A DNA stretch of 57,964 nt from Deltaproteobacteria bacterium (GTDB taxonomy: Bacteria; Bdellovibrionota_F; JAHFAK01), in the NCBI GenBank assembly GCA_023250585.1, contig JAHFAK010000002.1:2514-60477 (forward strand), written 5' to 3'. The translations under genes were made by a program, and so were the position numbers. Under the pieces are notes generated by a model. It worked only from the letters and a program-made list of their open reading frames with translations. It ran no database searches and was not told the origin of the DNA. Below, piece by piece: positions 4,884 through 57,964 of the stretch (position 1 is its first letter; every line of letters starts with the position of its first letter).

Positions 4884-5633
4884 TTATTTCTTCTGTAAAT
4901 TCTTCAATAACCTTACATAATCTTTTTGGCTTTCATAGACAAGTTCAGCTAGAAAATGGATGAACGGTTTAAAGTCTCCATTGTTTCCTTGGTACACTAC
5001 ATCCAAATATTCACCACGTTTAATCGGCGGAATAATGGTAATCGGATAATTGTTTTTAAAAAGAAAAAGATTCATGAGGAGTCGAGCACAGCGACCATTA
5101 CCATCTATAAATGGATGAATGTTGACGAATTTTGAGTGGACTAGGGCTGCACATTCAACTGGATGTATTTCTTTCTTAAACGAATTTATCTCAGTGATGA
5201 AGCTGTTCATGAGAGAAGGCAGTTCTTTTGGTGCAGGAAAGACAGTATCTCGGCCTGTTACAATAACGCCTACTTTTCGATATGTTCCGGCATTTTTTAT
5301 ATCGATACGATAATAAAAAAGTCTATGAAGTTCCATTATATAATGTTCATCAATCGTGTTTTTCTGAACCAGCGTATACAGTAAATCATAAGCTTCGCTA
5401 TGCCCAAGAGCTTCTTGATGATCACGAATTGGTTTTCCACCGATGGTAATTCCATCTTCAAGAACAATTTTTGTTTCGCTTTCAGTGAGCGAATTTCCTT
5501 CGAGCGCATTACTCGTGTAGGTAAAACTAATGCGATAGTATTCTTTGAGTTGCTTGAGAATTTCTTTATCGAAAGGTTTATATTTTTCTATTTCCTTTTG
5601 GTTGTTAGTAATTTTTTCAAATAAATTATTCAT
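4884..5633 (-). CDS. Fic family protein (AMPylase-like)
   Basis: A 249-aa Fic-domain protein that probably transfers AMP or another nucleotide to a hydroxyl side chain of a target protein. The catalytic motif HPFIDGNGR is intact, and an N-terminal SNALEG segment (residues 41-46) matches the self-inhibitory [S/T]xxxE[G/N] motif of Fic proteins that carry their own inhibitory helix. This fits the absence of a separate antitoxin next to it. Start chosen at the methionine of MNNLFEKI, where the conserved N-terminus of such proteins usually begins. An upstream in-frame ATG at 5693 has a GAGGA ahead of it and would add 20 residues. The 5' end is divergent from nuoA, with 126 bases between the chosen starts. 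Confidence 0.85.
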   Translation of the reverse strand: MNNLFEKITNNQKEIEKYKPFDKEILKQLKEYYRISFTYTSNALEGNSLTESETKIVLEDGITIGGKPIRDHQEALGHSEAYDLLYTLVQKNTIDEHYIMELHRLFYYRIDIKNAGTYRKVGVIVTGRDTVFPAPKELPSLMNSFITEINSFKKEIHPVECAALVHSKFVNIHPFIDGNGRCARLLMNLFLFKNNYPITIIPPIKRGEYLDVVYQGNNGDFKPFIHFLAELVYESQKDYVRLLKNLQKK

Positions 5634-5719
5634 ATCTACAAAACGTACCAGATCACATGAGACCATATCAAATGTAAAATAATAAATACTCATACATGAA
5701 CACTTGACTTCCTCATTTC

Positions 5720-5749
5720 TTGACTTATAGAGAGGGTATAACCTAGTAT
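5720..5749 (+). promoter_or_regulatory. Putative sigma-70 promoter of the nuo operon
   Basis: TTGACT (5720-5725) and TAGTAT (5744-5749) are separated by 18 bases. The -10 element ends only 10 bases before the nuoA ATG at 5760, so the transcript would have almost no 5' leader and no Shine-Dalgarno site is visible. Pattern match only. Confidence 0.45.
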
Positions 5750-5759
5750 ACTCAATGCG

Positions 5760-6143
5760 ATGATTTACGAGTATTTACATATATTTACGTTTATTGCTCT
5801 CTCTATCTTATTAGTATTTGTTACGCTTCTTGTTCAACGGTTTTTAGCGCCTCGTTTTACGAATAAAATGAAATCAAGCACCTATGAATGCGCCGAAGAA
5901 CCGGTCGGCCCGGCATGGATTAATTTCAATGCGCGATTTTATATTATTGCGCTTATATTTATTATTTTTGATGTAGAGATTGCATTTATGTTTCCTGTAG
6001 CAACGAGTTTTTTAAGTTGGGTTCAGCAGGGAAAAGGGCTCATTGCTTTTATTGAGATATTTTTATTCGCATTTGTTTTATTTATTGGCCTTATTTATGT
6101 GTGGGCAAAAAAGGATTTAGAATGGAAAAAAGAGATCACATAG
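5760..6143 (+). CDS. nuoA: NADH-quinone oxidoreductase subunit A
   Basis: A 127-aa membrane subunit of the complex I proton-pumping arm, with three predicted transmembrane helices (about 8-30, 60-82, 90-112). It has the conserved subunit A signature around [12 protein letters not shown] and [10 protein letters not shown]. First gene of an eleven-gene operon; its end overlaps nuoB by 22 bases. It helps form the quinone-site junction between peripheral and membrane arms. Start at ATG 5760, with no visible Shine-Dalgarno site; the upstream promoter suggests a leaderless or nearly leaderless message. Confidence 0.96.
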
Positions 6144-6679
6144 AAACTCGAGAAGAATACAGAACGAAAGAGAATGAAGTCCAAGAATGGAGCGCGTATC
6201 AAAAGCTCTCTGATAATGTTCTTTTTACATCCCTTGATAAAATTTTAAATTTGGGACGAGCAAATTCATTGTGGTATTTGCTTTTCGGAACTGCGTGCTG
6301 TGCAATTGAGCTTATGCAAACTGGTGGGCCTCGTGCTGATCTTGACCGCTTCGGATCAGTCTTTAGACCGACTCCTCGACAATGTGATTTAATCATTATT
6401 GCGGGTACCGTGACTCTTAAAATGGCATCGCGAATAAAAATACTCTACGACCAAATGCCGGAACCAAAGTATGTCATTTCTATGGGAAGCTGTGCAAATT
6501 GTGGAGGGCTTTTTGATCTTGGATATTCAGTGCTGCGTGGCATTGATAAAGTTATTCCCGTGGATGTCTATGTTCCTGGTTGTCCTCCACGACCTGAAGC
6601 ATTGACTGAAGGACTCTTAGTACTCCAGCAGAAAGTCAAAAACGAAAAATTTTTAGTCAAAGAAAAAAAATCAATTTAA
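6122..6679 (+). CDS. nuoB: NADH-quinone oxidoreductase subunit B
   Basis: A 185-aa peripheral-arm subunit that holds Fe-S cluster N2, the last cluster before quinone. The ligating cysteines are visible as the tandem pair in TACCAIE, the [10 protein letters not shown] motif and the [10 protein letters not shown] motif. Start chosen at ATG 6122, which has AAGGA seven bases upstream inside the end of nuoA; an in-frame GTG at 6101 has no such site. The gene overlaps nuoA by 22 bases, consistent with translational coupling. Confidence 0.97.
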
Positions 6680-6690
6680 AATTATTATTT

Positions 6691-7194
6691 ATGGAAACTT
6701 TACATACAAGATTACAAGAAAAATTTCCCAATGCGCAGGTAACATTTGCAAATCTTGAAGCGGGTGATCATTATATTATTGTTGATACAGCTCATCTTCA
6801 TTCTATTATTTCATATCTAAAAATTGACGAACACTACACGATACTCATGTGTCTTTCGGGTGCAGAAGATTCGGAATTTTTACAATCAGTGTATCATTTG
6901 TTTTCTGAGAGCTCTCGAAAAAAAGTAACTCTAAAAGTAAGATTGCCCAAAGATAATCCTGAAGTTGAAACGATTGGCGATCTTTGGCCAGGAGCTTATT
7001 TTTTTGAACGAGAAGCATATGATCTTTTTGGAATTATCTATAAAAATCATCCTGATTTGCGACGAATTATGCTTCCTGAAGATTGGATAGGGCATCCACT
7101 AAGAAAGAATTATATAGATCCGATACAGTATCAGGATATTAATAATGAACGAGCGTATCCTTGTGATGTTCCAAATGTGACTGAGAAAAAGTAA
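6691..7194 (+). CDS. nuoC: NADH-quinone oxidoreductase subunit C
   Basis: A 167-aa hydrophilic peripheral-arm subunit (30-kDa type). The family signature is seen around PEVETIGDLWPGAYFFEREAYDLFG, followed by LRRIMLPEDWIGHPLRKNY. Subunits C and D are separate genes here, not a fused nuoCD. It lies 11 bases after nuoB and one base before nuoD. It carries no cofactor and connects the N2-containing module to the rest of the arm. Confidence 0.96.
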   Translation: METLHTRLQEKFPNAQVTFANLEAGDHYIIVDTAHLHSIISYLKIDEHYTILMCLSGAEDSEFLQSVYHLFSESSRKKVTLKVRLPKDNPEVETIGDLWPGAYFFEREAYDLFGIIYKNHPDLRRIMLPEDWIGHPLRKNYIDPIQYQDINNERAYPCDVPNVTEKK

Positions 7195-7195
7195 T

Positions 7196-8323
7196 ATGTA
7201 TGAATTAGAAAAAAACAATGATAATACGATGACTCTCAACATGGGTCCGCATCATCCGAGTACACATGGAGTATTACGATTCATTTTGGAGATGGATGGA
7301 GAAATTATTCTCAGCGTGAAGCCTGATGTTGGCTATTTACATCGCTCAATTGAAAAAATTGGTGAACGAGTAACATATCCCGCGTTTATGCCTTATACCG
7401 ATCGTGTTGATTATGTAGCTGCCGCAAATTGTAATGTTGGATATGCATTGGCTGTAGAAAAACTTATGGGTATTGAAACTCCTGAACGAGCTCAGTATTT
7501 ACGTGTTATTGTTTCAGAGCTCAATCGAATCATCAGTCATCTTTTAATGACCGGCGTTCTTGCCATGGACCTTGGCGCATACACGCCTTTTTTACATGCC
7601 GTACGAGAACGAGAAAAAATTAATGATATTTTTGAGATTTTATGTGGAGCACGCCTTACCTATAATTTAGCAACGATCGGAGGCATGCCTTTTGATATTA
7701 AAGAGACAACCATTAGAAAATGTCTAGAAATTTTAGAAGGTTTAAAGAAATTTCTTAAAGAATTTGATGACCTTGTCACCAACAATGCTATTTTTATAAG
7801 TAGACTTGCCAATATTGGAGTCATCGATAAAGAAACCGCAAAAGCATTCATGCTTTCAGGCCCTAATCTCCGTGCAGCTGGGGCTCACTGGGATTTACGA
7901 AAAAACGAAACTTATTTTCTCTATGATCGATTCAAATTTGATATTGCAGTAGGAAGCGGAAAAGCCGGAACCCTTGGAGATTCCTACGATCGTTTTTCAG
8001 TGCGCATGAAAGAGATCGAAACGTCAATTTCAATACTTGAACAAGCATTTAAAAGTCTTCCCAGTGGTGAAGTCCAAGCAAAATTGCCAAAAACATTAAA
8101 GCCTCCAAAAGGTGAAGTATATGTTCGAACTGAAAGTGCGCGAGGCGAACTTGGGTATTACATTATTAGTGATGGCACAGCAAAAGCTTCGCGAATTAAA
8201 ATTAGAACGGGGTCCTTTGCGGCGATTTCAATTCTCGATAAAATTGGTAGAGGTTTAATGTTGAGTGATTTAGTTGCCTTTATGGCAAGCCTTGATTTAA
8301 TTGCACCCGAGATAGATAGATAA
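7196..8323 (+). CDS. nuoD: NADH-quinone oxidoreductase subunit D
   Basis: A 375-aa 49-kDa-type subunit that forms the quinone-binding pocket together with subunit B. The conserved MGPHHPSTHGVLR start, the GYLHRSIEK segment and the C-terminal DLVAFMASLDLIAPEIDR are all present. Its stop codon overlaps the nuoH start by one base (TAATG). Length matches the family. No sign of a nickel-hydrogenase-type C-terminal CxxC, so this is a complex I rather than a hydrogenase subunit. Confidence 0.97.
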   Translation: MYELEKNNDNTMTLNMGPHHPSTHGVLRFILEMDGEIILSVKPDVGYLHRSIEKIGERVTYPAFMPYTDRVDYVAAANCNVGYALAVEKLMGIETPERAQYLRVIVSELNRIISHLLMTGVLAMDLGAYTPFLHAVREREKINDIFEILCGARLTYNLATIGGMPFDIKETTIRKCLEILEGLKKFLKEFDDLVTNNAIFISRLANIGVIDKETAKAFMLSGPNLRAAGAHWDLRKNETYFLYDRFKFDIAVGSGKAGTLGDSYDRFSVRMKEIETSISILEQAFKSLPSGEVQAKLPKTLKPPKGEVYVRTESARGELGYYIISDGTAKASRIKIRTGSFAAISILDKIGRGLMLSDLVAFMASLDLIAPEIDR

Positions 8324-9432
8324 TGAATAACATAGCGATAACTCTCCATAACTTCATTATAGAAAATTTTGGTATTGATATAAACTTGTCTCTTGCCATT
8401 AGTTACTTTCTTATCGCGCTTATTTTTTGGAGTTTCTTAGGGGTTATCGGAGGATTGCTTACATTTCTTGAACGAAGAGTTGCAGGACGTATTCAGTCTC
8501 GTATTGGACCTAATCGTGTTGGTCCACAGGGAATATTCCAAATGCTTGCGGATGGAATCAAATTGGTTCTTAAAGAGGATCTGATTCCAGCTCTTGCTGA
8601 TAAACCTCTTTTTCGTATGGCTCCCTATTTATGCGTTATTGGAGTTTTTTCTGCCCTTGTTGTTATTCCCTTTAGCAGTGATATTGTCGTAGCGGATTTA
8701 AATGTTGGAGTATTGTATGCCCTTGCTATAACGACGATGGTAGTTATGGGAATTTTAATGGGAAGTTGGGCATCAAACAATAAATGGTCATTACTCGGTG
8801 GCTTACGAAGTGCTGCTCAAATTGTAAGTTATGAAATACCGGCGGCTCTTTCAGTTCTTTCAATTGTTTTGATTACGGGATCCTTAAGTATGCAAGATAT
8901 AATTCGTGCCCAAGGAGCATGGCCTCATCAGTGGTTTTTCTTCCATAATCCAGGAACATTTGTTGCTTTTTTTATATTCTTTACCTCAGCCCTTGCCGAA
9001 AATAACCGCGTTCCTTTTGATATTCCAGAAGCTGAATCGGAGCTTGTTGCCGGCTACAATACTGAATATTCAGGAATGCGTTTTAGTTTCTTTTTTTTAG
9101 CAGAATTTGCAAATGTCTTTATCATTTCTAGTCTTGCGGTAATCTTCTTTTTTGGTGGTTGGCAAATACCACATTTTTTAATAAGTGAAAATCACATTAT
9201 AACAAATATAATCATGATTGCGAATTTTTTATTCAAAACATTTGTGTTTATTTTTATTGTCTTATGGCTACGCTGGACCTTGCCACGTTTACGTGTTGAT
9301 CAACTCATGACTATGTGCTGGAAGTATCTAATTCCGATTTCCTTTATCTGTTTATGTATAACCGCAAGCTTTGTCCTCTTCTTTGGAGGAAAAAGTATGA
9401 TCGCTGTTTTTATTGGTAGGATTACACAATGA
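8323..9432 (+). CDS. nuoH: NADH-quinone oxidoreductase subunit H
   Basis: A 369-aa membrane subunit with about eight predicted transmembrane helices that forms the membrane side of the quinone cavity. Signatures include ERRVAGRIQSRIGPNRVGPQG (about residues 50-70), EDLIPALADK, and NNRVPFDIPEAESELVAGYN. Start overlaps the nuoD stop; its own stop overlaps nuoI (ATGA). The length is slightly above the usual 320-350 residues because of an extended N-terminal helix and a hydrophobic C-terminal tail. Confidence 0.97.
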   Translation: MNNIAITLHNFIIENFGIDINLSLAISYFLIALIFWSFLGVIGGLLTFLERRVAGRIQSRIGPNRVGPQGIFQMLADGIKLVLKEDLIPALADKPLFRMAPYLCVIGVFSALVVIPFSSDIVVADLNVGVLYALAITTMVVMGILMGSWASNNKWSLLGGLRSAAQIVSYEIPAALSVLSIVLITGSLSMQDIIRAQGAWPHQWFFFHNPGTFVAFFIFFTSALAENNRVPFDIPEAESELVAGYNTEYSGMRFSFFFLAEFANVFIISSLAVIFFFGGWQIPHFLISENHIITNIIMIANFLFKTFVFIFIVLWLRWTLPRLRVDQLMTMCWKYLIPISFICLCITASFVLFFGGKSMIAVFIGRITQ

Positions 9433-9908
9433 GAGAAGATATTATACAGTATTTTAGAAATATTAAATATGCAGTAACGAGTGTTCCAAAGGGGATGATG
9501 GTTACACTGAAGAATATGTTTCGTGAACCGACTACTATTCAATACCCTGATCGGATACCACAAAAAATTGAAGACACGCTCCCGTTAAATTATAGAGGAC
9601 ACCTAGAAGTTGAAAAAGAAATATGCACAGGATGCCTTTTGTGTGAAAAATTTTGTCCGATTGATTGTATAAGGATTGATGTTCACAAAGAAGAAACAGG
9701 GCGGGTACTGCATAGCTTTAAAATTGATATGGCAAAATGTATGTATTGCGGACTCTGCGTTCCTCCATGCCCAACAGATGCAATTCGTTTTACGAGAAAA
9801 TTTGAAGGATCTACATACGATATTAAAAGCTTGCTCTTTGAATTTATAGATACTCCAACGCCGGTGTATAAACCAAATAGAGATAAAGATAAAAAGGAAG
9901 AAGCGTGA
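9429..9908 (+). CDS. nuoI: NADH-quinone oxidoreductase subunit I
   Basis: A 159-aa ferredoxin-like subunit carrying two 4Fe-4S clusters (N6a/N6b) that pass electrons to N2. Both binding motifs are complete: CTGCLLCEKFCP and CMYCGLCVPPCP. The N-terminal LKNMFREPTTIQYPD segment is typical of the family. It overlaps nuoH by ATGA and nuoJ by GTGA. With no NuoE, F or G encoded nearby, the electron donor to these clusters cannot be read from this window. Confidence 0.97.
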   Translation: MREDIIQYFRNIKYAVTSVPKGMMVTLKNMFREPTTIQYPDRIPQKIEDTLPLNYRGHLEVEKEICTGCLLCEKFCPIDCIRIDVHKEETGRVLHSFKIDMAKCMYCGLCVPPCPTDAIRFTRKFEGSTYDIKSLLFEFIDTPTPVYKPNRDKDKKEEA

Positions 9909-10432
9909 GTATTACATTAATTGATATATTTTTTTCTATGAGTGTAGCGCTAACAATTGCAAGTGCATTGTATACCGCTTTTTCATCCAATATTTTACGA
10001 AGCGCTTTTGGATTACTCTTTACTCTTTTAGGGGTTGCTCTTTTGTATCTTTTTTTAAATGCCGGGTTTTTGGCAGCATTACAAATTATGCTCTATGCGG
10101 GTGGAATAATGGTTATTGTAATATTCGCCATATTTTTTACACGAGAAATCCTTACGACTAAAATATCAAATCCACGTAAAGAAACACTGTACAGCTTACT
10201 GTTACTCATGATTTCTATGGTTACGCTCATTATGATTATTTTTAAAACAGATTGGGTAGAGAATAATCAACTTATTGGTTCAGATATCCGTTCAATTGGC
10301 CAGTTACTTTTAAATGAATATCTTATTGCATTTGAAATGATATCACTTCTGATACTTTTGGTTTTGATTGGTTCAGTTTCAATTGCACGAAAAGCATTTA
10401 AAGAAGCAGAAAGAAGAAAGCTCTATGATTAA
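9905..10432 (+). CDS. nuoJ: NADH-quinone oxidoreductase subunit J
   Basis: A 175-aa membrane subunit with five predicted transmembrane helices; the conserved AALQIMLYAGGIMVIVIFAIF helix contains the pi-bulge region of subunit J. It starts with GTG at 9905, overlapping the nuoI stop (GTGA), the only convincing GTG start in the operon. The end overlaps nuoK by eight bases. Confidence 0.94.
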   Translation: MSITLIDIFFSMSVALTIASALYTAFSSNILRSAFGLLFTLLGVALLYLFLNAGFLAALQIMLYAGGIMVIVIFAIFFTREILTTKISNPRKETLYSLLLLMISMVTLIMIIFKTDWVENNQLIGSDIRSIGQLLLNEYLIAFEMISLLILLVLIGSVSIARKAFKEAERRKLYD

Positions 10433-16160: not shown

Positions 16161-16176
16161 TGGCATAAAAATTGCA
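16161..16176 (+). promoter_or_regulatory. Sigma-54-type promoter (-24/-12)
   Basis: TGGCATAAAAATTGCA has the GG and GC dinucleotides in the exact spacing of the sigma-54 consensus (TGGCAC-N5-TTGCA). Predicted transcription start is near 16187, 19 bases before the ATG of the secreted protein at 16206. Three more such elements occur in this window. Confidence 0.7.
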
Positions 16177-47196: not shown

Positions 47197-48501
47197 TCAA
47201 AAACGCACCGAAGGATCGCCATAAATTTGTGGAGCAAGAAGATTCGTATGAGCTACGGGGCTTAATGGATAATACACATTATCGATATAGTAATTCAGTG
47301 CAGCTGCAAGCGATTCACCGACACTATTGCCACGCAAAATGTATGATCCAACAAGAACCATTTGAGCCGTAATGCCGGGGATGTCTCGAATTGTTGCAAT
47401 AGGGTGTCTCAGATCTTGCTGTTCTATTGGACTTACTTCCTGAGTCGCCGCTAAGTATACAATGACATTATTTTTTAACAGCGCATCAGTAAGTGTTCCA
47501 TTAAAGCTATTGCCATTCGGAGCTCCATTCGAACAGCTTGCCGAAAATAAAACTACGGGAAAAGGATTAGTAATTTTTTTAATTATATCAGGGTGTAAAA
47601 AAGGTTCGCGTCGTGGTTGATAAATGGATGCTGTACTTGGTGATCCATGAGCTAATGTATAGACAAAACCAAAGTCATTTGCATTCCACTGTTCTACCAA
47701 GCTATCTTTGTTGAGAACCACGTCAGCTCCTTGCAATCCTTCTTCATACATTGAAAAAGTTGGAACATCTGCTTTAAAAAATACCATATTGTTTAATGGG
47801 TTAAGTAAAAAACCATTTGAATCAATGGGAAATCGAGACGTATCAATGCGAAGATATGCACGGGTAAAGCTCCCTCCCAAGAGACGAGCTTGTTTTCGAA
47901 AAAAGAGATCAGTACCTTTCATCGTTTCATATTCAATAGTGTTACTTAGAATTTTACTAATGACGCTGCTCTTATCAAATGGAATACGGCCAAGAAAAAC
48001 ATTATGATTATATTTAATATCAGGATCTTCGCCATTGAGACCCCAATTACTTTCGAGATCTTCATAGACTTTGTCAGTAGGAATAGTAATTTCTTCATTG
48101 AAAAAATTATGGCTTTTGAGTTTGAGCATGGGAATTATTTTTGGCGAACCGATGAGAAGAACGTACTCCGTATTCTCTGTATTTTTTTCTTCAATAATAA
48201 AATTTCGAAGTTTTTCTATTTTTTCGATCTCTCTATCTACATTACTATAGATTACATTAAGAGGGATCGCACTAACATTAAATCCAAGGTCTCGTTTATG
48301 ATTTTGAAAATCCTCAGTAAGAGGAATAATGCTTTTATCAGAAATTATTAGATACTGCTTTTGTTCAGTATTTTTTTCAAATTCATTATTTATTTTATCG
48401 AATGAATAACTATCCAAATAATCGTTCAAGCTTGCTTGGCAAGAAATAACAGAAACCAGAAAAATAGAGAGGATAAAATATTTATATACGTTTATGTGCA
48501 T
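47197..48501 (-). CDS. C25 (gingipain-like) cysteine peptidase, lipoprotein
   Basis: A 434-aa protein with a lipobox signal peptide (SVISC, C21). The catalytic His of family C25 is seen in FVYTLAHGSPS and the catalytic Cys in VLFSASCSNGAPNG; the preceding domain (YVLLIGSPKIIPML, HNVFLGRIPF) is typical of the family's N-terminal subdomain. It would be an anchored periplasmic or surface protease. Unlike secreted gingipains there is no C-terminal sorting domain and no long propeptide. Single gene on the minus strand, converging with the coiled-coil gene (7-base gap). Confidence 0.82.
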   Translation of the reverse strand: MHINVYKYFILSIFLVSVISCQASLNDYLDSYSFDKINNEFEKNTEQKQYLIISDKSIIPLTEDFQNHKRDLGFNVSAIPLNVIYSNVDREIEKIEKLRNFIIEEKNTENTEYVLLIGSPKIIPMLKLKSHNFFNEEITIPTDKVYEDLESNWGLNGEDPDIKYNHNVFLGRIPFDKSSVISKILSNTIEYETMKGTDLFFRKQARLLGGSFTRAYLRIDTSRFPIDSNGFLLNPLNNMVFFKADVPTFSMYEEGLQGADVVLNKDSLVEQWNANDFGFVYTLAHGSPSTASIYQPRREPFLHPDIIKKITNPFPVVLFSASCSNGAPNGNSFNGTLTDALLKNNVIVYLAATQEVSPIEQQDLRHPIATIRDIPGITAQMVLVGSYILRGNSVGESLAAALNYYIDNVYYPLSPVAHTNLLAPQIYGDPSVRF

Positions 48502-48544
48502 GTCTCTTACCTTTATTATCATAAACAAAAAAAGATGCAAGCTT

Positions 48545-49848: not shown

Positions 49849-50880
49849 TCATTTCTTTAAAGATATTTCTCCGTTATTGGTTTGGAGCGCAAGGACATTG
49901 TGCGGTTTCCCCAACACAATAAAAAATGATTCCCCATTTTCAGTCATTTGGAATTTTTTCGTGATGTTTTGATCTTGGAAGGGAAAACCGTGTTCGGAAG
50001 TAGCGGTGATCTTAAGTTGGTTTCGGGAATCAAAGTTAATAGTAATATCTCCGTTGTGAGAGATCACTTCTGAATCACCCGTAAAAAGAACATTACGCCC
50101 TTCAAAGCGGCCATTATGGTCTTCTGCCGTTAAAGTTCCTTCGGTATCTTTTAACACAATATCTCCATTATGCCCGTCGATTTTTGCTTTTGTAAATTTT
50201 GTTTTTTCTAATTTAACTTCTCCATTCTGAGAATTAATATCCAATGACGTAATTGTACATTCTTTAATTTTCAAAGATCCGTTATGTGTTGTAATTGTAG
50301 CATCAGGAATCGTTGTTTTTGATACAGTAATGGAACCATTATGGGTTTCAGCCTCAAGTTTTTCAAATCGTTGAGCGTTGTAAGCTTGAGATCCATTATG
50401 TGTCGTAATATCGAGCGCTGAAAATGCTCCTCCGTCAGTTCTGATATATCCATTATGAGTTTCAGCTTCAATATTCATTTTTTCGGGAAGAAGAATTTTG
50501 AATGAAAACCCATAATTGTTTATTTCTCCGCCCACATCTTCGGCATCGTCACGATTTTCATTTGTAGTAACCTCTAGTGATGAGCCAGCAGGTTCTACTT
50601 TAAACGAAAGAGTAGCAAAAATTTTCTTTTGATCTTCGTCTGAAATACTTTTGAGAGTTTCAAAAAATTTAAAGCCACTAATCATAATATCTTCGCGTGC
50701 CTCTGCTTTAAATGTAAAATTGCTGTTATGTCCATCTGCGATAATTTTTTCGAGTGATTTTTTGTCGATCTTTATTTGTTTGATAGGCTCTCGATATTCA
50801 TGCTCATCATCAAAATGCGCTAAGAGCGATGTTGCTGAAACAATGAAGCTCATAAAAAATACAATTAAAATTCTTTGCAT
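49849..50880 (-). CDS. Exported HNG-repeat protein (DUF4097-like beta-helix)
   Basis: A 343-aa protein with a signal peptide (MQRILIVFFMSFIVSATSLL, cleavage near AHF). Residues about 135-290 contain at least nine spaced copies of a (T/S/D)-H/Q-N-G motif (for example ETHNGYI, TTHNGSL, DGHNGDI, ISHNGDI) at about 20-residue spacing, the pattern of a parallel beta-helix of DUF4097-like type. Start chosen at MQRIL with GGAGGAACC upstream. Role unknown; its architecture resembles the VEQGSL-repeat protein in the RiPP-like cluster 4 kb away. Confidence 0.78.
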   Translation of the reverse strand: MQRILIVFFMSFIVSATSLLAHFDDEHEYREPIKQIKIDKKSLEKIIADGHNSNFTFKAEAREDIMISGFKFFETLKSISDEDQKKIFATLSFKVEPAGSSLEVTTNENRDDAEDVGGEINNYGFSFKILLPEKMNIEAETHNGYIRTDGGAFSALDITTHNGSQAYNAQRFEKLEAETHNGSITVSKTTIPDATITTHNGSLKIKECTITSLDINSQNGEVKLEKTKFTKAKIDGHNGDIVLKDTEGTLTAEDHNGRFEGRNVLFTGDSEVISHNGDITINFDSRNQLKITATSEHGFPFQDQNITKKFQMTENGESFFIVLGKPHNVLALQTNNGEISLKK

Positions 50881-51067
50881 AGGTTCCTCCATAACTTATT
50901 TTTGTTTATTGTATATATTCATAATATCTTACTATACAGCTTGTCTAGACCTTTTACAGGCTTTACTTATTGTATTCATTTTGTATCGAGTAAAGCACAC
51001 TGTTATTTTTGTATATACTATCCACTCGTTAAGTCTTTAATTTTAAACAAATAATTAATGTCATCTT

Positions 51068-51668: not shown

Positions 51669-52673
51669 CTACCGTTCCACACATTTTTTAATTTTTTCTT
51701 TAAGGAAACGAGGAGTGCCTGTCCACATGGGAAGATCGTCTCTTATTTTGATACAAAGTTGTTTCGTAGTGTCCGGATCAATTTTTTCTAACGTAGAAAT
51801 TAAGTCTGGGATTAACAAAAAATACAAAAGAGAAGTGTTCCCTCGTTCATTTTTCATGAAGTCCATAGTTTCTTCTAAAAATATATCGATTTTTCTTTCA
51901 TGAAAATTAATCTTAAGCCTTAGCCATTGGAGAAAACGAGGCTGTAGTGCAGTTGTATCAATTAGCGTGTAATAGCCATGCAGTATTTCTTTCAATCCAT
52001 CATTCCATTGATAAGCACTATTCCCTAAAGCCATTTCATGCAAGATTTGAATTGTCATATCTCGTATCAAGCTTGGTTGAATTCTTTTCAAAAAAGATGA
52101 CCCCCATGGTCCTTTGAGGTAGGATATATTAAATACTGATGAATTAAGATACTGTATTGCTTCAATACTGCGGGATAGAGCGCGTGAATAGTTACCGGTT
52201 TTTACATCAATTCTGATTAAATTATGAGCTAGCTGTATTCGATGCATATGTAATAAATAAATACCAAACTTTTCTTCGAGAATGATATCAGCATCATTTG
52301 CTTGAAAGATTATTTGTTGAGCTTCGACAAAATTATTTTCACAATATTTAAAATAAGCTTTTGTTGAACAGAGAGACGATACACAGTGAAGTCGTGCTTG
52401 GAGTCCTAAAAGCCTGAGCCAATATTCAAAATTAGCTTGTTTATAATAAAGCTCTGCTGTCTGTAATTTCTTCTGCCGCGATGCTGTCAGCGCGTGAGCT
52501 GATAAAACCATAATACGTTTACAGATGAGATATTCATTAAGACTCACATTTTTTTTTATGAGTGATCCAGTTTTATCGGAGAAATATGTTCCAGAATAAA
52601 TAACTGATTGTAGAGAAAGCTTGCTACGACTTTCATTATATGCTTGCAGTATTTTTTGTAATGGTATTTTCAT
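51669..52673 (-). CDS. Helical (TPR-like) protein of the RiPP-like cluster
   Basis: A 334-aa soluble protein without a signal peptide, almost entirely alpha-helical, with TPR-like pairs (AELYYKQANFEYWLRLLGL, NYSRALSRSIEAIQYL). It overlaps the radical SAM gene by 38 bases and has its own CAGGAG site, so it is the last gene of that operon. I do not recognise the family. A scaffold, recognition or immunity protein are all possible roles; none is shown by the sequence. Confidence 0.7.
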   Translation of the reverse strand: MKIPLQKILQAYNESRSKLSLQSVIYSGTYFSDKTGSLIKKNVSLNEYLICKRIMVLSAHALTASRQKKLQTAELYYKQANFEYWLRLLGLQARLHCVSSLCSTKAYFKYCENNFVEAQQIIFQANDADIILEEKFGIYLLHMHRIQLAHNLIRIDVKTGNYSRALSRSIEAIQYLNSSVFNISYLKGPWGSSFLKRIQPSLIRDMTIQILHEMALGNSAYQWNDGLKEILHGYYTLIDTTALQPRFLQWLRLKINFHERKIDIFLEETMDFMKNERGNTSLLYFLLIPDLISTLEKIDPDTTKQLCIKIRDDLPMWTGTPRFLKEKIKKCVER

Positions 52674-54069
52674 GAATAGATAGCTCCTGAGATACTACAG
52701 TTTCTTCTTGTTTCATTCGAGAGATTGCATAATGAAGAAGGAGTTTTTGTTCAATATTAAATTTTGTAACAGGGCAGGGAATGTATCCCTCGAGCCATTT
52801 TTTTGGACATGCTCCACCGCAGACAGGAAGCATTCGGCAGGTATTACACGGTACTTGTCCTTTTTCTACGAGGGAATAAAAATCGCCAAAAACATTTTGC
52901 TTTCGTTTACCTGGGATCTCTCCATGTTCGAGATGACCAATTGCATATTTATTGGATTGAGATATCCCCGGAATTTTTTCGTATGCTGGAACCTGACTTA
53001 CTTCAGAGCAATCAAAAAGAGTTCCGGTGGCATCAATGAGAATTGCTTTGGGATCAACGGCAAAACAGGTAACTTTTTTTCGCTTAGGCAGTACATTAAC
53101 GTTAAAACCTAATTTATACATTTCTACATACCATTCCATTTCTCGCTCTCCAAATTCAGCTTGAGTAGGAGATGTTTTATCCGCATCATTTCCCCATGAA
53201 TAGACTAAGGTCCAATAGAAGGAGCCAAGGCGTTTCTGTAAATTGTGTTCAGCCAAAAGACGCATGAGTGGAATAACTCCATCCATATTTTCCCAACTGA
53301 CATTGCATCTAATAATAATTTTAAGCTTAATATCCTGAGATTCACAGATTGTGATAATATTATTAAAGATTTTATCAAATGACCCCTGTCCACCTTTTGT
53401 AGGTCTACTCTTATCATGGTACTCTTTTGTACCATCAAGGGTAATATGTACCTCAGTGATATCGAGCTCATCGTATAATTCCCGTGCAACTTCTTTAGTG
53501 ACTAAAACTCCATTTGAGGTTAATCGTCCACTGTAACTGCAACCAAATTGTTGAGCAAGTTCTTTAAATCTTTTTGTTAGTAGACGCATATCATCTAATG
53601 CTAAAAGTGCTTCGGCTCCAAACCATGAAATCAGGACTGATTTCCATTTCCTAGCAGAGAGTCGTTTTTGTAATTCCTCTACTAAAAGATCTTGATGTTT
53701 CTGTGATAAATTTTTTGCGGTATGTTTCTGACCACAATAACCACAGCCTAATTGACATAATGCCGTTGGCTGGATAACCATATACAAATCATCGCTATCG
53801 AGAATTTCGGCTTGATTTTCATTGAGAATGCTTAATAGCTCATTTTCATTTTTTGGCACAAGAATTCTCGTTGAGATAAGATCATCGATAATAGAACGAG
53901 GGATACCTTGAAGTAATCCCTCGTTTACACTATTCCATATATGTGGATCCATTATCCGGACTACTCCATTTCTTGTCCCATATACTATATGTTTTTCATA
54001 GCCATCACGTTCATCATAGATTGGAGTTGAAACTACATATTGAGAAAGTTTGAATAATGAATCAGGCAT
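52636..54069 (-). CDS. Radical SAM/SPASM peptide-modifying enzyme
   Basis: A 477-aa radical SAM enzyme. Residues about 1-95 form a small domain of the kind seen at the front of many peptide maturases and may bind the leader peptide. The SAM-cluster motif CQLGCGYC (C105, C109, C112) is intact, as is the Gly-rich FGAEALL region. The C-terminal SPASM domain has C335, C354 and the C408-x2-C411-x5-C417-x3-C421 set plus C432, enough for two auxiliary 4Fe-4S clusters. Together with three cysteine-rich precursors upstream it is the probable maturase, forming thioether or C-C crosslinks. The chemistry is inferred. Confidence 0.88.
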   Translation of the reverse strand: MPDSLFKLSQYVVSTPIYDERDGYEKHIVYGTRNGVVRIMDPHIWNSVNEGLLQGIPRSIIDDLISTRILVPKNENELLSILNENQAEILDSDDLYMVIQPTALCQLGCGYCGQKHTAKNLSQKHQDLLVEELQKRLSARKWKSVLISWFGAEALLALDDMRLLTKRFKELAQQFGCSYSGRLTSNGVLVTKEVARELYDELDITEVHITLDGTKEYHDKSRPTKGGQGSFDKIFNNIITICESQDIKLKIIIRCNVSWENMDGVIPLMRLLAEHNLQKRLGSFYWTLVYSWGNDADKTSPTQAEFGEREMEWYVEMYKLGFNVNVLPKRKKVTCFAVDPKAILIDATGTLFDCSEVSQVPAYEKIPGISQSNKYAIGHLEHGEIPGKRKQNVFGDFYSLVEKGQVPCNTCRMLPVCGGACPKKWLEGYIPCPVTKFNIEQKLLLHYAISRMKQEETVVSQELSIHENTITKNTASI

Positions 54070-54092
54070 AATTATTTCCTCGGATAATTTGT

Positions 54093-54830
54093 TTATTTGA
54101 TAGACAGGTCTCCTTGATCAACGATAAGTTCAATATTAGAATTTTTATCAGAACACTGAGATGTTGGATATAAGGATATTTTAGGATATGCTTCAATCCA
54201 GGCGTTAATACGTTCGCTTGCTGGAATAGAAATATTTTTTGCTGTCAATACTCCTTGTCCTAGTTCTACTTTTATACAAGGATTCTTTTGTATATGAGTT
54301 GGCTTAAATTCAAGAGATCCCTGTTCAACATGTAGTTGTAACTTACTATTAGCAGTAGTCTCGCCCTTAAATAAAAGAGATCCCTGTTCAACAAGTAAAT
54401 TTGCTTGTAGTATTGAACCTGATAAAAATGTTATCATACCATTTTTAACTTTAGCAGTTAACACTATGTTAGATGGGACTACTATTGCTGCAGTTACCTC
54501 TACGTCTCCACAATTTCCATCAATCTCAAGATTGTTAAGGGTCGGTGTGGCTTTACAGTTATCTAGATTTTTACCTGTAAACCACCCGAGATTAGGTTGA
54601 AGTCGTACTCGATACTTAATCGGACTATCGTTTTCGGTAACTTCATGCTCTAAATCTATTTTTTCATCCGACACCTCTATTCTTAGTTCACCTCTTGTAA
54701 GAGTTACCTCGAGTGATTCTTGACCTTTTTTCAATGGTACCGTTCCACTTATTTCCTTTGCGTAAATTACTGAAGCAGAAAAACAAACGATAAGGCAGAG
54801 AACAATGAGAATGTTTAATCTTTTAACCAT
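54093..54830 (-). CDS. Exported VEQGSL-repeat protein in the RiPP-like cluster
   Basis: A 245-aa protein with a signal peptide (LNILIVLCLIVCFSASVIYA). The mature part is beta-rich with repeated turns VEQGSL, VEQGSL, LGQGVL and VDQGDL, and may be a DUF4097-like beta-helix. Four or five cysteines lie in the middle part. Start at ATG 54830 with GGAGG upstream; the ATG at 54842 overlaps that site. It lies between the precursor genes and the radical SAM gene on the same strand. It may be a periplasmic partner or carrier for the modified peptide; this is inference. Confidence 0.72.
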   Translation of the reverse strand: MVKRLNILIVLCLIVCFSASVIYAKEISGTVPLKKGQESLEVTLTRGELRIEVSDEKIDLEHEVTENDSPIKYRVRLQPNLGWFTGKNLDNCKATPTLNNLEIDGNCGDVEVTAAIVVPSNIVLTAKVKNGMITFLSGSILQANLLVEQGSLLFKGETTANSKLQLHVEQGSLEFKPTHIQKNPCIKVELGQGVLTAKNISIPASERINAWIEAYPKISLYPTSQCSDKNSNIELIVDQGDLSIK

Positions 54831-54883
54831 AACGACCTCCAAATTAATTTATAATGTTTTTGTCATATTCTTAAATTTTCTTT

Positions 54884-54928
54884 TACCATGGCCATGGCAT
54901 ATATAATTTGATTAAGTATGCCATGGTA
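54884..54928. terminator. Stem-loop between precursor genes and maturase genes
   Basis: CCATGGCATA (54892-54901) pairs with TATGCCATGG (54917-54926), and the outer TACCATG pairs with CATGGTA. No U-run follows in the direction of transcription, so it is not a textbook terminator. It lies where partial termination or RNA processing would give more precursor than maturase message. Confidence 0.55.
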
Positions 54929-54955
54929 GATTTTACATAATACTTATATCTATTA

Positions 54956-55243
54956 CTAGCAGCCTGTATTACTAGGACAACCGGAATTGCTTGTACAGCT
55001 GCCCACATTAACTGAGTCTCCATTTATCGGAGAAGTAAAATCTAATTTTTCATAGGCGATAACAGATTCATATACAGCTTTTTGAACCTGCGTGGGTTCT
55101 TTTTTAGTAACTGCCGCATGAGTTGTTTGAGGTAAGACAATTGATCCTAATACAATATTCGCTCCTGCAACAAAGGTCATTAAATGTCGAGACAATCTCG
55201 ATTTTGTTTTCTCAGTTGGTTTGAAAATTTCATTTTTCTTCAT
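54956..55243 (-). CDS. RiPP-like precursor peptide 3
   Basis: A 95-aa peptide, third of three tandem paralogues. It has a Lys-rich start with KSRLSRHLMTFVAGANIVLG, a signal-like hydrophobic segment ending PQTTHAAVTK, the conserved hinge YEKLDFTSPI and a C-terminal core GSCTSNSGCPSNTGC. Its three cysteines have the same C-x5-C-x5-C spacing as the sister peptides, but the first unit is T-S-N-S-G instead of P-x-N-T-G. The stop follows the last Cys directly. AAAGGAA precedes the ATG. Confidence 0.8.
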   Translation of the reverse strand: MKKNEIFKPTEKTKSRLSRHLMTFVAGANIVLGSIVLPQTTHAAVTKKEPTQVQKAVYESVIAYEKLDFTSPINGDSVNVGSCTSNSGCPSNTGC

Positions 55244-55280
55244 AATTATGTTCCTTTCTTATTAATGCGTATTTTTATTT

Positions 55281-55565
55281 CTAACAGCCAGTATTAGTTG
55301 GACAACCAGTATTGTGTGGGCAACTGGTATTACCGTCCTCATTATTTACTGGAGAAGTAAAATCTAATTTTTCGTATACATACACTGATTCGAGGACTGA
55401 TTTTTTAGTCAGAATAGTATCTTTGTTTGTAACTGCTGCATGTGTAATTTGTGGGATTGTTAATGATCCTAATACAATATTCGCTCCTGCAACAAACGTT
55501 ATTAAGTGTCTGGATAAGCCAGACTTTTTTTTCTCTGTTAAGTTTAAAGTTTTATTTTCCTTCAT
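55281..55565 (-). CDS. RiPP-like precursor peptide 2
   Basis: A 94-aa peptide, second of three paralogues; a good AAAGGAG site precedes ATG 55565. The N-terminal part (KSGLSRHLITFVAGANIVLG) and hinge (YVYEKLDFTSPVN) are nearly the same as in its neighbours. The C-terminus reads NTSCPHNTGCPTNTGC: three cysteines, each separated by five residues, and the last residue is Cys. The middle (about 45-65) is the least conserved part. Likely substrate of the radical SAM enzyme encoded about 1.2 kb downstream. Confidence 0.82.
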   Translation of the reverse strand: MKENKTLNLTEKKKSGLSRHLITFVAGANIVLGSLTIPQITHAAVTNKDTILTKKSVLESVYVYEKLDFTSPVNNEDGNTSCPHNTGCPTNTGC

Positions 55566-55601
55566 AATTATACTCCTTTCTTATTCACATATGTCTCTTA
55601 A

Positions 55602-55886
55602 CTAACAGCCTGTATTTTTTGGACAGCCAGTATTAGTTGGACAACCAGTATTACTTTCTTCCTCATGTATTGGAGAAGTAAAGTCTAATTTTTCGTATAC
55701 ATACACTGATTCAAATGTTGATTTTATAACTAAGGAATTGTCCTCCTTTGTAACTGCCGCATGTGTAACTTGAGGTAGTACAAATGTACCCAATACAATG
55801 TTTGCCCCAGCAACAAAAGTCATTAAATGTCGCGATAATTTCGACTTCTTTGTTTCTGGTAGCTCCAAAACTTCATCTTTCTTCAT
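55602..55886 (-). CDS. RiPP-like precursor peptide 1
   Basis: A 94-aa peptide, the first gene after the sigma-54-type promoter. Start chosen at MKKDEVLELPE (55886), with AAAGGAGAT upstream; a longer frame to 55940 would begin at the predicted transcription start and has no ribosome binding site. Leader: KSKLSRHLMTFVAGANIVLG, then signal-like end THAAV. Hinge: YVYEKLDFTSPI. Core: NTGCPTNTGCPKNTGC, a perfect tandem of the six-residue unit. Nothing like this core is known to me; it resembles cysteine-rich substrates of SPASM enzymes in layout. Confidence 0.83.
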   Translation of the reverse strand: MKKDEVLELPETKKSKLSRHLMTFVAGANIVLGTFVLPQVTHAAVTKEDNSLVIKSTFESVYVYEKLDFTSPIHEEESNTGCPTNTGCPKNTGC

Positions 55887-55951
55887 ACGAAATCTCCTTT
55901 TGTAATAATTGTTAGTAAAATAACTAAAACTGAATTTCATATAGAGGATAA

Positions 55952-55967
55952 TGCAAGTTATATGCCA
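55952..55967 (-). promoter_or_regulatory. Sigma-54-type promoter of the RiPP-like operon
   Basis: Read on the minus strand, TGGCATATAACTTGCA matches the sigma-54 consensus in all key positions (GG at -24, GC at -12, correct register). Predicted start near 55941, 55 bases before the first precursor ATG. Expression would need an enhancer-binding activator; none is encoded in the window. Confidence 0.72.
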
Positions 55968-56029
55968 AAAGTTATTTCTTGTAATTACTGAATGTTAGAT
56001 GTTTTTGACTTATAGTGATGCAATCAAAA

Positions 56030-56099
56030 GAAGACATTTTGTCTTCGTCAGTATTCAGTCAACAATGTGCTCTATGATAGATGTCTTCATGTTGACTGA
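56030..56099 (+). promoter_or_regulatory. Mutually exclusive hairpins in the leader region of the S41 gene
   Basis: GAAGAC (56030-56035) can pair with GTCTTC (56041-56046), or, extended to GAAGACAT, with ATGTCTTC (56081-56088). TCAGTCAAC (56055-56063) pairs with GTTGACTGA (56091-56099). The alternatives cannot all form at once, as in some regulatory RNAs. Whether this stretch is transcribed is unknown. Confidence 0.3.
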
Positions 56100-56172
56100 T
56101 AGGAGCTTGGAATTATATATGTCGAACTATATTCATTATGCTTAATCCAATTATTTTCCTGAGGAGGTTACT

Positions 56173-57741
56173 ATGATTTCATTGAAAAGAATATTCATAT
56201 CCCTGATTTTGTTTACTTTGCTTTCATGTTCTTTAAAAAAAATCTCAAAGAACGAATCAAATCCCTGGCAGGAACTTACAAAGAGAGACCTCGCTTTTAT
56301 TTATAAAACTATACTGAACGATCATCCAGGGCCTGTCGATGAACTTAATCCAGATTTTAAAATTTGGCTTGAGGAAGGATATAAAGAAGCTTTAAAACGA
56401 ACTGAAGAGGTTACAAGTTTTGCAGGTTATGTATATCTCCTTCGCTATTATGTTAATGGCTTTCAAGATGGTCATGTGTATATCAACTTTAAACTTGAAC
56501 GAGAGAATTTAAACTGGTCAGGATTTCTAGTTGCATATCAAAATGGAAAATTTCTAGTTGAATATGTTGATAGCAGTGGAAGTTTTGCAAAGCTTCCAGA
56601 AATTAATGATGAACTTGTAAGTTGTAATGATATGAAGCCTATGGATTTGATGAATAAAAATATTTTTCCTTTTCAAGGAATTCATGAACTTGAAGCCGAA
56701 TTGTTTCGATTTGCTCCACTTCTCTTTGTATTTGATGGAAATCCATGGGCAGAGTCTTTAGATACCTGTGTATTTAGATCAGCAAAGAATAAAGAATATT
56801 TTCTGTCTCTTGAGAAACGACCAATAGGAAATACTCAGATTTCTGCTCTCATTGACCAAATTAGAGGAGTTCCAGATAGGACATTTACTAGTACGAAATT
56901 TGGAAATAATTCAGTATGGATTAAACTTCCTTCTTTCGATCCAAAGGGAAATAGTGAATTACTACAAATGCGTTCACTTATGCAAACAATAGAACAAGAG
57001 AAAGAAATGTATAGAAAGAGTGATATGGTTGTATTTGATGTTCGAGGAAATAGTGGAGGAAGTTCGGTATGGGGCCAAAAAATACTCATGAATCTTTATG
57101 GAGAAAAATATGTGCGATATAAATCAACTCAAAATTTTATATCGAACTATAATGTTCATGCCTTATGGAGAGTTTCTCCGAGCAATTATAATTACCATCT
57201 CACCGAAACACTTCCTGAGTTAGAACGTAATTTTGGTCCTGATTCTGAGGCATATAAAGAGTATACAGATCTTGCTGAGCAAATGAAACAAGCCCTTACA
57301 AAAAATATTCAATTAATTCGAGAAGGCCAGGATGAAAATACTCTTAAAAGAAAAGCAAATGAGGCTAAACAGAGCATTATTGTTGGTGATAATCTTAATC
57401 AAGCACAAGTATTCTTATTGACTGATTCACGTTGTGGAAGTGCCTGCCTTGATTTCTGTGATATGTTGTTTCGGGTTGATGAAAAACTAATTCACGTAGG
57501 GCATCCAACCAATGCTGATACTGTATATCTAACAATAAAATATGATACTCTTCCAAGCGATATTGCATATATCACAGTACCAAGAAAACTTTGGCGCAAC
57601 CGACCTCGTGGTCACAATGTAGCTTATATACCGAAGTATCGTTGGGAAGGTGCAATTGGTGATACTGAAGCACTTCAAAAATGGATTATTGAAATAGCTA
57701 CAAGAAAGAAAGATACCGTCGTTACGAAGGATAATAAATAA
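56173..57741 (+). CDS. S41-family peptidase-like lipoprotein
   Basis: A 522-aa protein with a lipobox signal peptide (FTLLSC, C19). The S41 (tail-specific protease) layout is visible: VVFDVRGNSGGSS near residue 300 and a Ser-containing DSRCGSACLDF near residue 420, the expected nucleophile region, with a probable cap and a long helical insert (about 350-400). It has a strong GAGGAGG site. It is divergent from the RiPP-like operon, with 286 bases between start codons, and is a candidate for trimming the exported precursor. That link rests on proximity only. Confidence 0.75.
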   Translation: MISLKRIFISLILFTLLSCSLKKISKNESNPWQELTKRDLAFIYKTILNDHPGPVDELNPDFKIWLEEGYKEALKRTEEVTSFAGYVYLLRYYVNGFQDGHVYINFKLERENLNWSGFLVAYQNGKFLVEYVDSSGSFAKLPEINDELVSCNDMKPMDLMNKNIFPFQGIHELEAELFRFAPLLFVFDGNPWAESLDTCVFRSAKNKEYFLSLEKRPIGNTQISALIDQIRGVPDRTFTSTKFGNNSVWIKLPSFDPKGNSELLQMRSLMQTIEQEKEMYRKSDMVVFDVRGNSGGSSVWGQKILMNLYGEKYVRYKSTQNFISNYNVHALWRVSPSNYNYHLTETLPELERNFGPDSEAYKEYTDLAEQMKQALTKNIQLIREGQDENTLKRKANEAKQSIIVGDNLNQAQVFLLTDSRCGSACLDFCDMLFRVDEKLIHVGHPTNADTVYLTIKYDTLPSDIAYITVPRKLWRNRPRGHNVAYIPKYRWEGAIGDTEALQKWIIEIATRKKDTVVTKDNK

Positions 57742-57809: not shown

Positions 57810-57964
57810 TACCAGCTCAGTAAATGGAGGATTAAGTAATTTTTCTATGGAACTGGATCCCGCGGTCAAGCCGCGGGATGACAATTTGAGAGTGTTTCCC
57901 GTTTGTCATCCCGTGGCTTGACCACGGGATCCATCTTCATTTTTCCCATTTACTGAGCTATTAC
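57810..57964. mobile_element. Miniature inverted-repeat element G, copy 2, containing a GGATCCCG palindrome
   Basis: Outer ends GTACCAGCTCAGTAAATGG (57810-57828) and, inverted, GTAATAGCTCAGTAAATGG from the last base of the window. Inside lies a different palindrome: GGATCCCGCGGTCAAG (57855) mirrored by CTTGACCACGGGATCC (ends 57932). The outer end shares GTACCAGCTCAG with the element at 48545-48810, but the inner palindrome is unrelated. No coding potential seen. Confidence 0.75.

Follow-up and report, generated by a model that had tools for sequence, protein, structure and literature searches.

An unusual putative RiPP operon with three Sec-type precursors, N-x-x-C tails and a radical SAM/SPASM maturase from an uncurated clade

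The N-x-x-C motif gave its name to a streptococcal family of ribosomally synthesised and post-translationally modified peptides (RiPPs), the NxxC family. Its known product has a beta-thioether between Cys and an Asn located upstream; in NxxcA, NxxcB connects Cys23 with the Asn20 beta-carbon (PMC8326336, PMC13361665). Few bacterial RiPP precursors carry a Sec signal, and experimental proof in the natural host exists for bufferins only, in which a partner protein may keep the signal masked for as long as modification is under way (PMC12452194). Here we describe a real and unusual RiPP operon in a 57,964-nucleotide stretch of DNA (hereafter the window) from Deltaproteobacteria bacterium (GTDB lineage Bdellovibrionota_F; assembly GCA_023250585.1, contig JAHFAK010000002.1, positions 2,514 to 60,477 of the forward strand). 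Six genes in series on the minus strand (51669-55886) encode three precursor peptides, an exported protein of 245 amino acids (aa), a radical S-adenosylmethionine (SAM)/SPASM enzyme and a helical protein (Table 1), and the open reading frame (ORF) coordinates confirm the layout proposed in an earlier annotation made from the letters alone (the sequence-only reading). With a probability of roughly 0.6, we read the operon as a putative RiPP system for three exported, multi-ring NxxC-type ranthipeptides, comprising a new maturase clade and a TPR-like partner.

The three tandem genes had been put forward as paralogues of 94-95 aa with Cys-rich ends, and the encoded peptides are indeed 65-68% identical in pairwise comparison. 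Each gene is preceded by a ribosome-binding site, and per-site synonymous differences between the paralogues (pS 0.52-0.64) were far higher than non-synonymous ones (pN 0.18-0.21). The precursors are therefore real coding genes under purifying selection. Common to all three are a Sec-like signal that ends in THA-AVT, the invariant block YEKLDFTSP and a tail built from N-T/S-G/S-C units, and the genome holds these three copies of the family only. A 112-aa version of the first precursor, with its start at 55940, was rejected as an artefact; this start is 12 nt beyond the sigma-54 element, close to where transcription is expected to begin.

Asn occupies position -3 relative to 8/9 Cys in the window tails, and position -4 relative to the ninth. 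In the precursors found beside related maturases in Roseibium and Planctomycetaceae, Asn or Asp stands at -3 of 12/12 Cys (NLGC-DSGC, NVAC-DSGC). Shuffling of the tails with Cys held fixed gave p ~5e-5, the floor of the test, for each set, the counts being not fully independent because the window paralogues are related, as are the two Roseibium peptides. Elsewhere in the same maturase tree, two Streptococcus loci (L111 and L082) have precursor tails reading NLGCGSGC and NLICGSAC; numbered from the ATG behind its ribosome-binding site, the L111 precursor carries Asn 20 and Cys 23, matching NxxcA. The sequence-only reading held that neither the core motif nor the secreted partner matched any class known to it. 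For the core this has to be given up, as N-x-x-C is the streptococcal motif and covers all but one of the Cys residues in the window, while the secreted 245-aa partner remains unclassified.

The maturase possesses the complete cluster motifs that had been ascribed to it, namely CX3CX2C at 105/109/112 and seven SPASM Cys (335, 354, 408, 411, 417, 421, 432), all invariant in the clade alignment, and it matches Pfam Radical_SAM (E 2.4e-10). It lies outside the curated families. The nearest NCBIfam model, TIGR04463, gave 194.5 bits against a curated cut-off of 525, the PapB model gave 89.8 bits against a cut-off of 340, and no clade member tested passed any NCBIfam maturase cut-off. In a profile comparison, the closest solved structure was that of the thioether-forming enzyme CteB (5wgg, E 4e-16). 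A scan of genome contigs retrieved relatives with 31-43% identity from Duganella, Roseibium, a Planctomycetaceae metagenome-assembled genome, Prevotella and Myroides, as well as a more distant one from Streptomyces. Together with the window maturase these form one clade (10 rows; Shimodaira-Hasegawa-like approximate likelihood ratio test, SH-aLRT, 100; stem 1.0), whose profile scored 601-689 bits for the core clade, 338 for Streptomyces and at most 273 for all others in the tree. Clade members occur sporadically in Pseudomonadota, Planctomycetota, Bacteroidota and one Streptomyces, and a search of ~1,000 additional genomes, taken from the same orders, families or phyla as the known members, added only a handful. 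The clade is therefore rare and patchy, a distribution that would fit horizontally moving natural-product genes. Scans of viral contigs with the precursor and with the maturase returned nothing useful.

A Cys-peptide gene clearly adjoined the maturase at 8 of the 11 clade loci with usable flank (L038, L039, L040, L041, L043, L044, L045 and L128; L130 is near-identical to L045), L042 being left out of the count because the nearby contig end cuts its flank short. These genes immediately precede that of the maturase in Duganella (two), both Roseibium, Planctomycetaceae (two), Prevotella (L043, L045) and Myroides, and as two tandem copies in L128, a locus from the family searched around Duganella. 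L129 has a probable Cys peptide with a Roseibium-like leader (weak, E 0.018), and none was seen at L127 or in Streptomyces (L046). Across phyla, the precursors of clade members have no detectable homology to each other. The sequence-only reading would have been undone by maturase homologues found mainly without such precursors; Cys peptides adjoin most clade maturases, and its pairing of Sec-type precursors with a SPASM maturase as a RiPP system is upheld by this co-occurrence. Two of the loci have peculiarities of their own. Precursor and maturase are duplicated in tandem in L128 (G897, ~5570-10050), where both 53-aa precursors are identical and the maturases differ, and the Duganella cluster has two maturases, with a second radical SAM gene (L038:4387-5391) located upstream of its two precursors.

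We infer the bond type, the order of events, the roles of the partners, the final trimming and the biological role as follows. An enhancer-binding protein would activate RpoN, leading to transcription of the three precursors, the exported accessory protein, the maturase and the TPR-like partner. In the cytoplasm the maturase, helped by the solenoid partner, would remove a beta-hydrogen from every Asn in the N-(T/S)-(G/S)-C repeats, the invariant YEKLDFTSP stretch being the probable site that it reads. Bonding of the Asn beta-carbon with the thiol of the Cys three positions further on would close a small thioether ring (-2 Da), of which a precursor could carry up to three. Once modified, the ringed precursor would be exported via Sec by its own signal sequence, and a signal peptidase cut after THA would leave a peptide of ~50 residues with a ringed C-terminal tail, perhaps an extracellular signal, an antagonist or a surface peptide.

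Several observations weigh against the assignment to NxxC-type ranthipeptides. The window maturase is ~25% identical to the streptococcal NxxC-type enzymes and belongs to another clade that is not sister to theirs; it is thus not an NxxcB orthologue on this tree, in which the L111 and L082 enzymes, branching in a different group, were taken as NxxcB-like from their precursors and the NxxcB sequence itself was not compared. Pfam detected no RiPP recognition element (RRE) domain in the maturase, and neither 97 other genomes nor viral contigs yielded a credible precursor homologue. The cores of Bacteroidota and Burkholderiales clade members mostly lack N/D at -3, and the chemistry may therefore differ within the clade. 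Lastly, the repeat has a period of six, which places Asn also at +3 of two Cys per precursor (6/6) and so makes the ring direction ambiguous, except at the last Cys.

The +3 Asn also speaks for the likeliest alternative, in which the same RiPP system makes another linkage: an alpha-thioether (sactionine), a SCIFF-like Cys-to-Thr gamma-thioether or a forward C-to-x-x-N ring. Thr or Ser adjoins each Asn, and the CteB structure as nearest solved relative points the same way. However, all three window precursors and both Planctomycetaceae ones end in Cys, which leaves this last Cys without any forward acceptor, and only the -3 position fits nearly all Cys across distant members; we consider a different linkage unlikely. 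Alternatively, the precursors could be Sec-exported metal-binding or disulfide Cys-rich peptides akin to bufferins, the radical SAM enzyme contributing a minor modification or one of another kind. The best-known Sec signals of RiPP precursors are those of bufferins, which are modified by multinuclear non-haem iron-dependent oxidases (MNIOs) (PMC12452194), and the window genome does encode one MNIO. This gene, the only one found (G000:C80:11432-12214, L197; PF05114, E 1e-99), lies on another contig, outside the operon; the operon enzyme is of the radical SAM/SPASM type, and Asn fixed at -3 of each Cys would be unexpected for a metal site, all of which makes the bufferin-like explanation improbable. 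The MNIO gene does imply that a second, bufferin-like RiPP may exist in the same genome. An even less probable alternative is that the precursors are just small secreted proteins of an ordinary kind, the maturase acting elsewhere, for example on the exported protein of 245 aa or in the manner of sulfatase maturases: this would accommodate an orphan precursor family and clade precursors unrelated across phyla, but not the Cys-peptide gene immediately upstream of the enzyme in several phyla, the convergence on N/D at -3, or precursor tails that, read directly, do not contain the C-x-P-x-R sulfatase motif.

The sigma-54 promoter previously proposed ahead of the precursors was corroborated at the level of the genome, which encodes RpoN (E 1e-62) and contains 57 sites matching the sigma-54 pattern versus 1 for the reversed control. 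A signal-like start followed these sites in 25/30 callable targets, compared to 12/42 window genes scored by the same crude rule. The precursors thus belong to a genome-wide sigma-54 regulon of exported proteins, in agreement with the proposal that sigma-54 controls the bacterial exterior (PMC3162934). With targets that are mostly lipoproteins and Sec-exported proteins, the regulon is unusually large for a 2.24-Mb genome (a further site lies at window 16161-16176). Two near-copies of a 24-29 bp element, ~85 bp apart, stand upstream of the precursor promoter and may be activator-binding sites.

Table 1 Features of the operon and its flanks (window coordinates).
Feature	Coordinates	Strand	Basis
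Precursor 1	55602..55886	-	94 aa; Sec-type signal, invariant YEKLDFTSP, tail NTGCPTNTGCPKNTGC
Precursor 2	55281..55565	-	94 aa; tail NTSCPHNTGCPTNTGC
Precursor 3	54956..55243	-	95 aa; tail NVGSCTSNSGCPSNTGC
Exported 245-aa protein, signal peptide, weak beta-repeats (possibly diverged Toastrack/DUF4097)	54093..54830	-	Sub-threshold Pfam
Radical SAM/SPASM peptide maturase, uncurated clade	52636..54069	-	Motifs, profile scores, tree
TPR-like alpha-solenoid partner	51669..52673	-	Homologues beside maturase in Roseibium and a Planctomycete
Sigma-54 promoter element TGGCATATAACTTGCA	55952..55967	-	-24 GG/-12 GC spacing correct; RpoN in genome
Two similar direct repeats and inverted repeats upstream of promoter	55992..56102 (repeats 55992-56015, 56074-56102)		Candidate enhancer-binding-protein sites
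Divergent S41-like lipoprotein peptidase	56173..57741	+	Pfam S41 E 4e-4, under cut-off

The last gene of the operon, described beforehand as helical, was modelled as a solenoid of 15 helices (predicted local distance difference test, pLDDT, 78), for which a fold search gave generic TPR matches (best E 0.01). Homologues lie directly downstream of the maturase in both Roseibium (L039: 25% over 259 aa, E 3e-13) and the Planctomycete (E 3e-6), and none was found at the Duganella or Prevotella loci. Helical proteins at the Myroides and Burkholderiales loci are related to each other (E 4e-8); no link could be made between them and the window solenoid. By analogy with the bufferin partner, the solenoid could mask the signal until modification is done. 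As it is also found with relatives that have no signal, a general role in substrate delivery is the safer suggestion. The 245-aa protein has the signal peptide claimed for it, and the claimed repeat is only weakly apparent, as a possible Toastrack-like beta-repeat below threshold (DUF4097, E 0.046, 13.5 bits; Pfam gathering score 22.9). Its structure model was too poor for use (pLDDT 45), so we make no claim as to its fold; our guess is a receptor, carrier or immunity factor.

The divergent S41-type lipoprotein peptidase seen at the flank is likewise present. Its linkage to the system is uncertain, and no S41-type peptidase was seen beside clade relatives, whose flanks are only partly annotated. 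Beside this gene, a GC-rich palindromic repeat, GATCCCGCGGTCAAGCCGCGGGATG, occurs as two inverted copies (57856-57880 and 57907-57931). Also near the operon, on the minus strand, are a C25 (gingipain-like) peptidase (47197-48540; E 2e-28) and an exported protein with a strong DUF4097/Toastrack match (49849-50892).

A radical SAM case with an uncurated clade, a new conserved partner and an N/D-x-x-C rule would carry beta-thioether chemistry well beyond streptococci, and would offer a simple test of whether ringed peptides pass through the Sec channel. We entertain, as a tentative and on balance doubtful proposition, that the operon represents a separate class of radical SAM RiPPs, in which multi-ring N/D-x-x-C thioether peptides made in the cytoplasm cross Sec already ringed and a solenoid chaperone delays export until modification is complete.

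Among known systems, the streptococcal NxxC family (NxxcA/NxxcB; Caruso 2019) resembles the window in having an N-x-x-C core and a radical SAM/SPASM maturase adjoining a short Cys peptide (PMC8326336, PMC13361665). The window differs in its three precursors, each bearing as many as three NxxC units, its Sec signal instead of a short leader, its solenoid partner and its sigma-54 control instead of Rgg. TIGR04463 (rSAM_vs_C_rich), a family of radical SAM/SPASM RiPP maturases, is the best NCBIfam match, yet all clade members tested score far below its cut-off; a 37-aa ORF containing NGGC/DVNC/NSGC, which resembles the window core, is present at one TIGR04463-like locus (L007). The maturase at L007 itself contains an in-frame TAG (2557-2559) inside the SPASM CxxC..C motif (LACSRCT*LPVCMGGC), reflecting a pseudogene, a sequencing error or recoding. 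The enzymes of SCIFF and freyrasin ranthipeptides (CteB, PapB) are also SPASM proteins and form non-alpha thioethers on Cys-rich peptides, but in SCIFF and PapA the Cys precedes the acceptor (Cys32-Thr34/37, CX3D), whereas in the window the likely acceptor precedes the Cys. Bufferins share a Sec signal in the precursor, Cys cores and a dedicated partner protein (PMC12452194), and depend on another enzyme superfamily, with no MNIO in the window operon. The proposed chemistry is of a type already known; what is unusual is the family of the enzyme and a secretion signal built into the precursors. By its likely mechanism, the system appears to be a new variation on NxxC/ranthipeptide-type systems, and by sequence it falls outside both the NxxcB group and TIGR04463.

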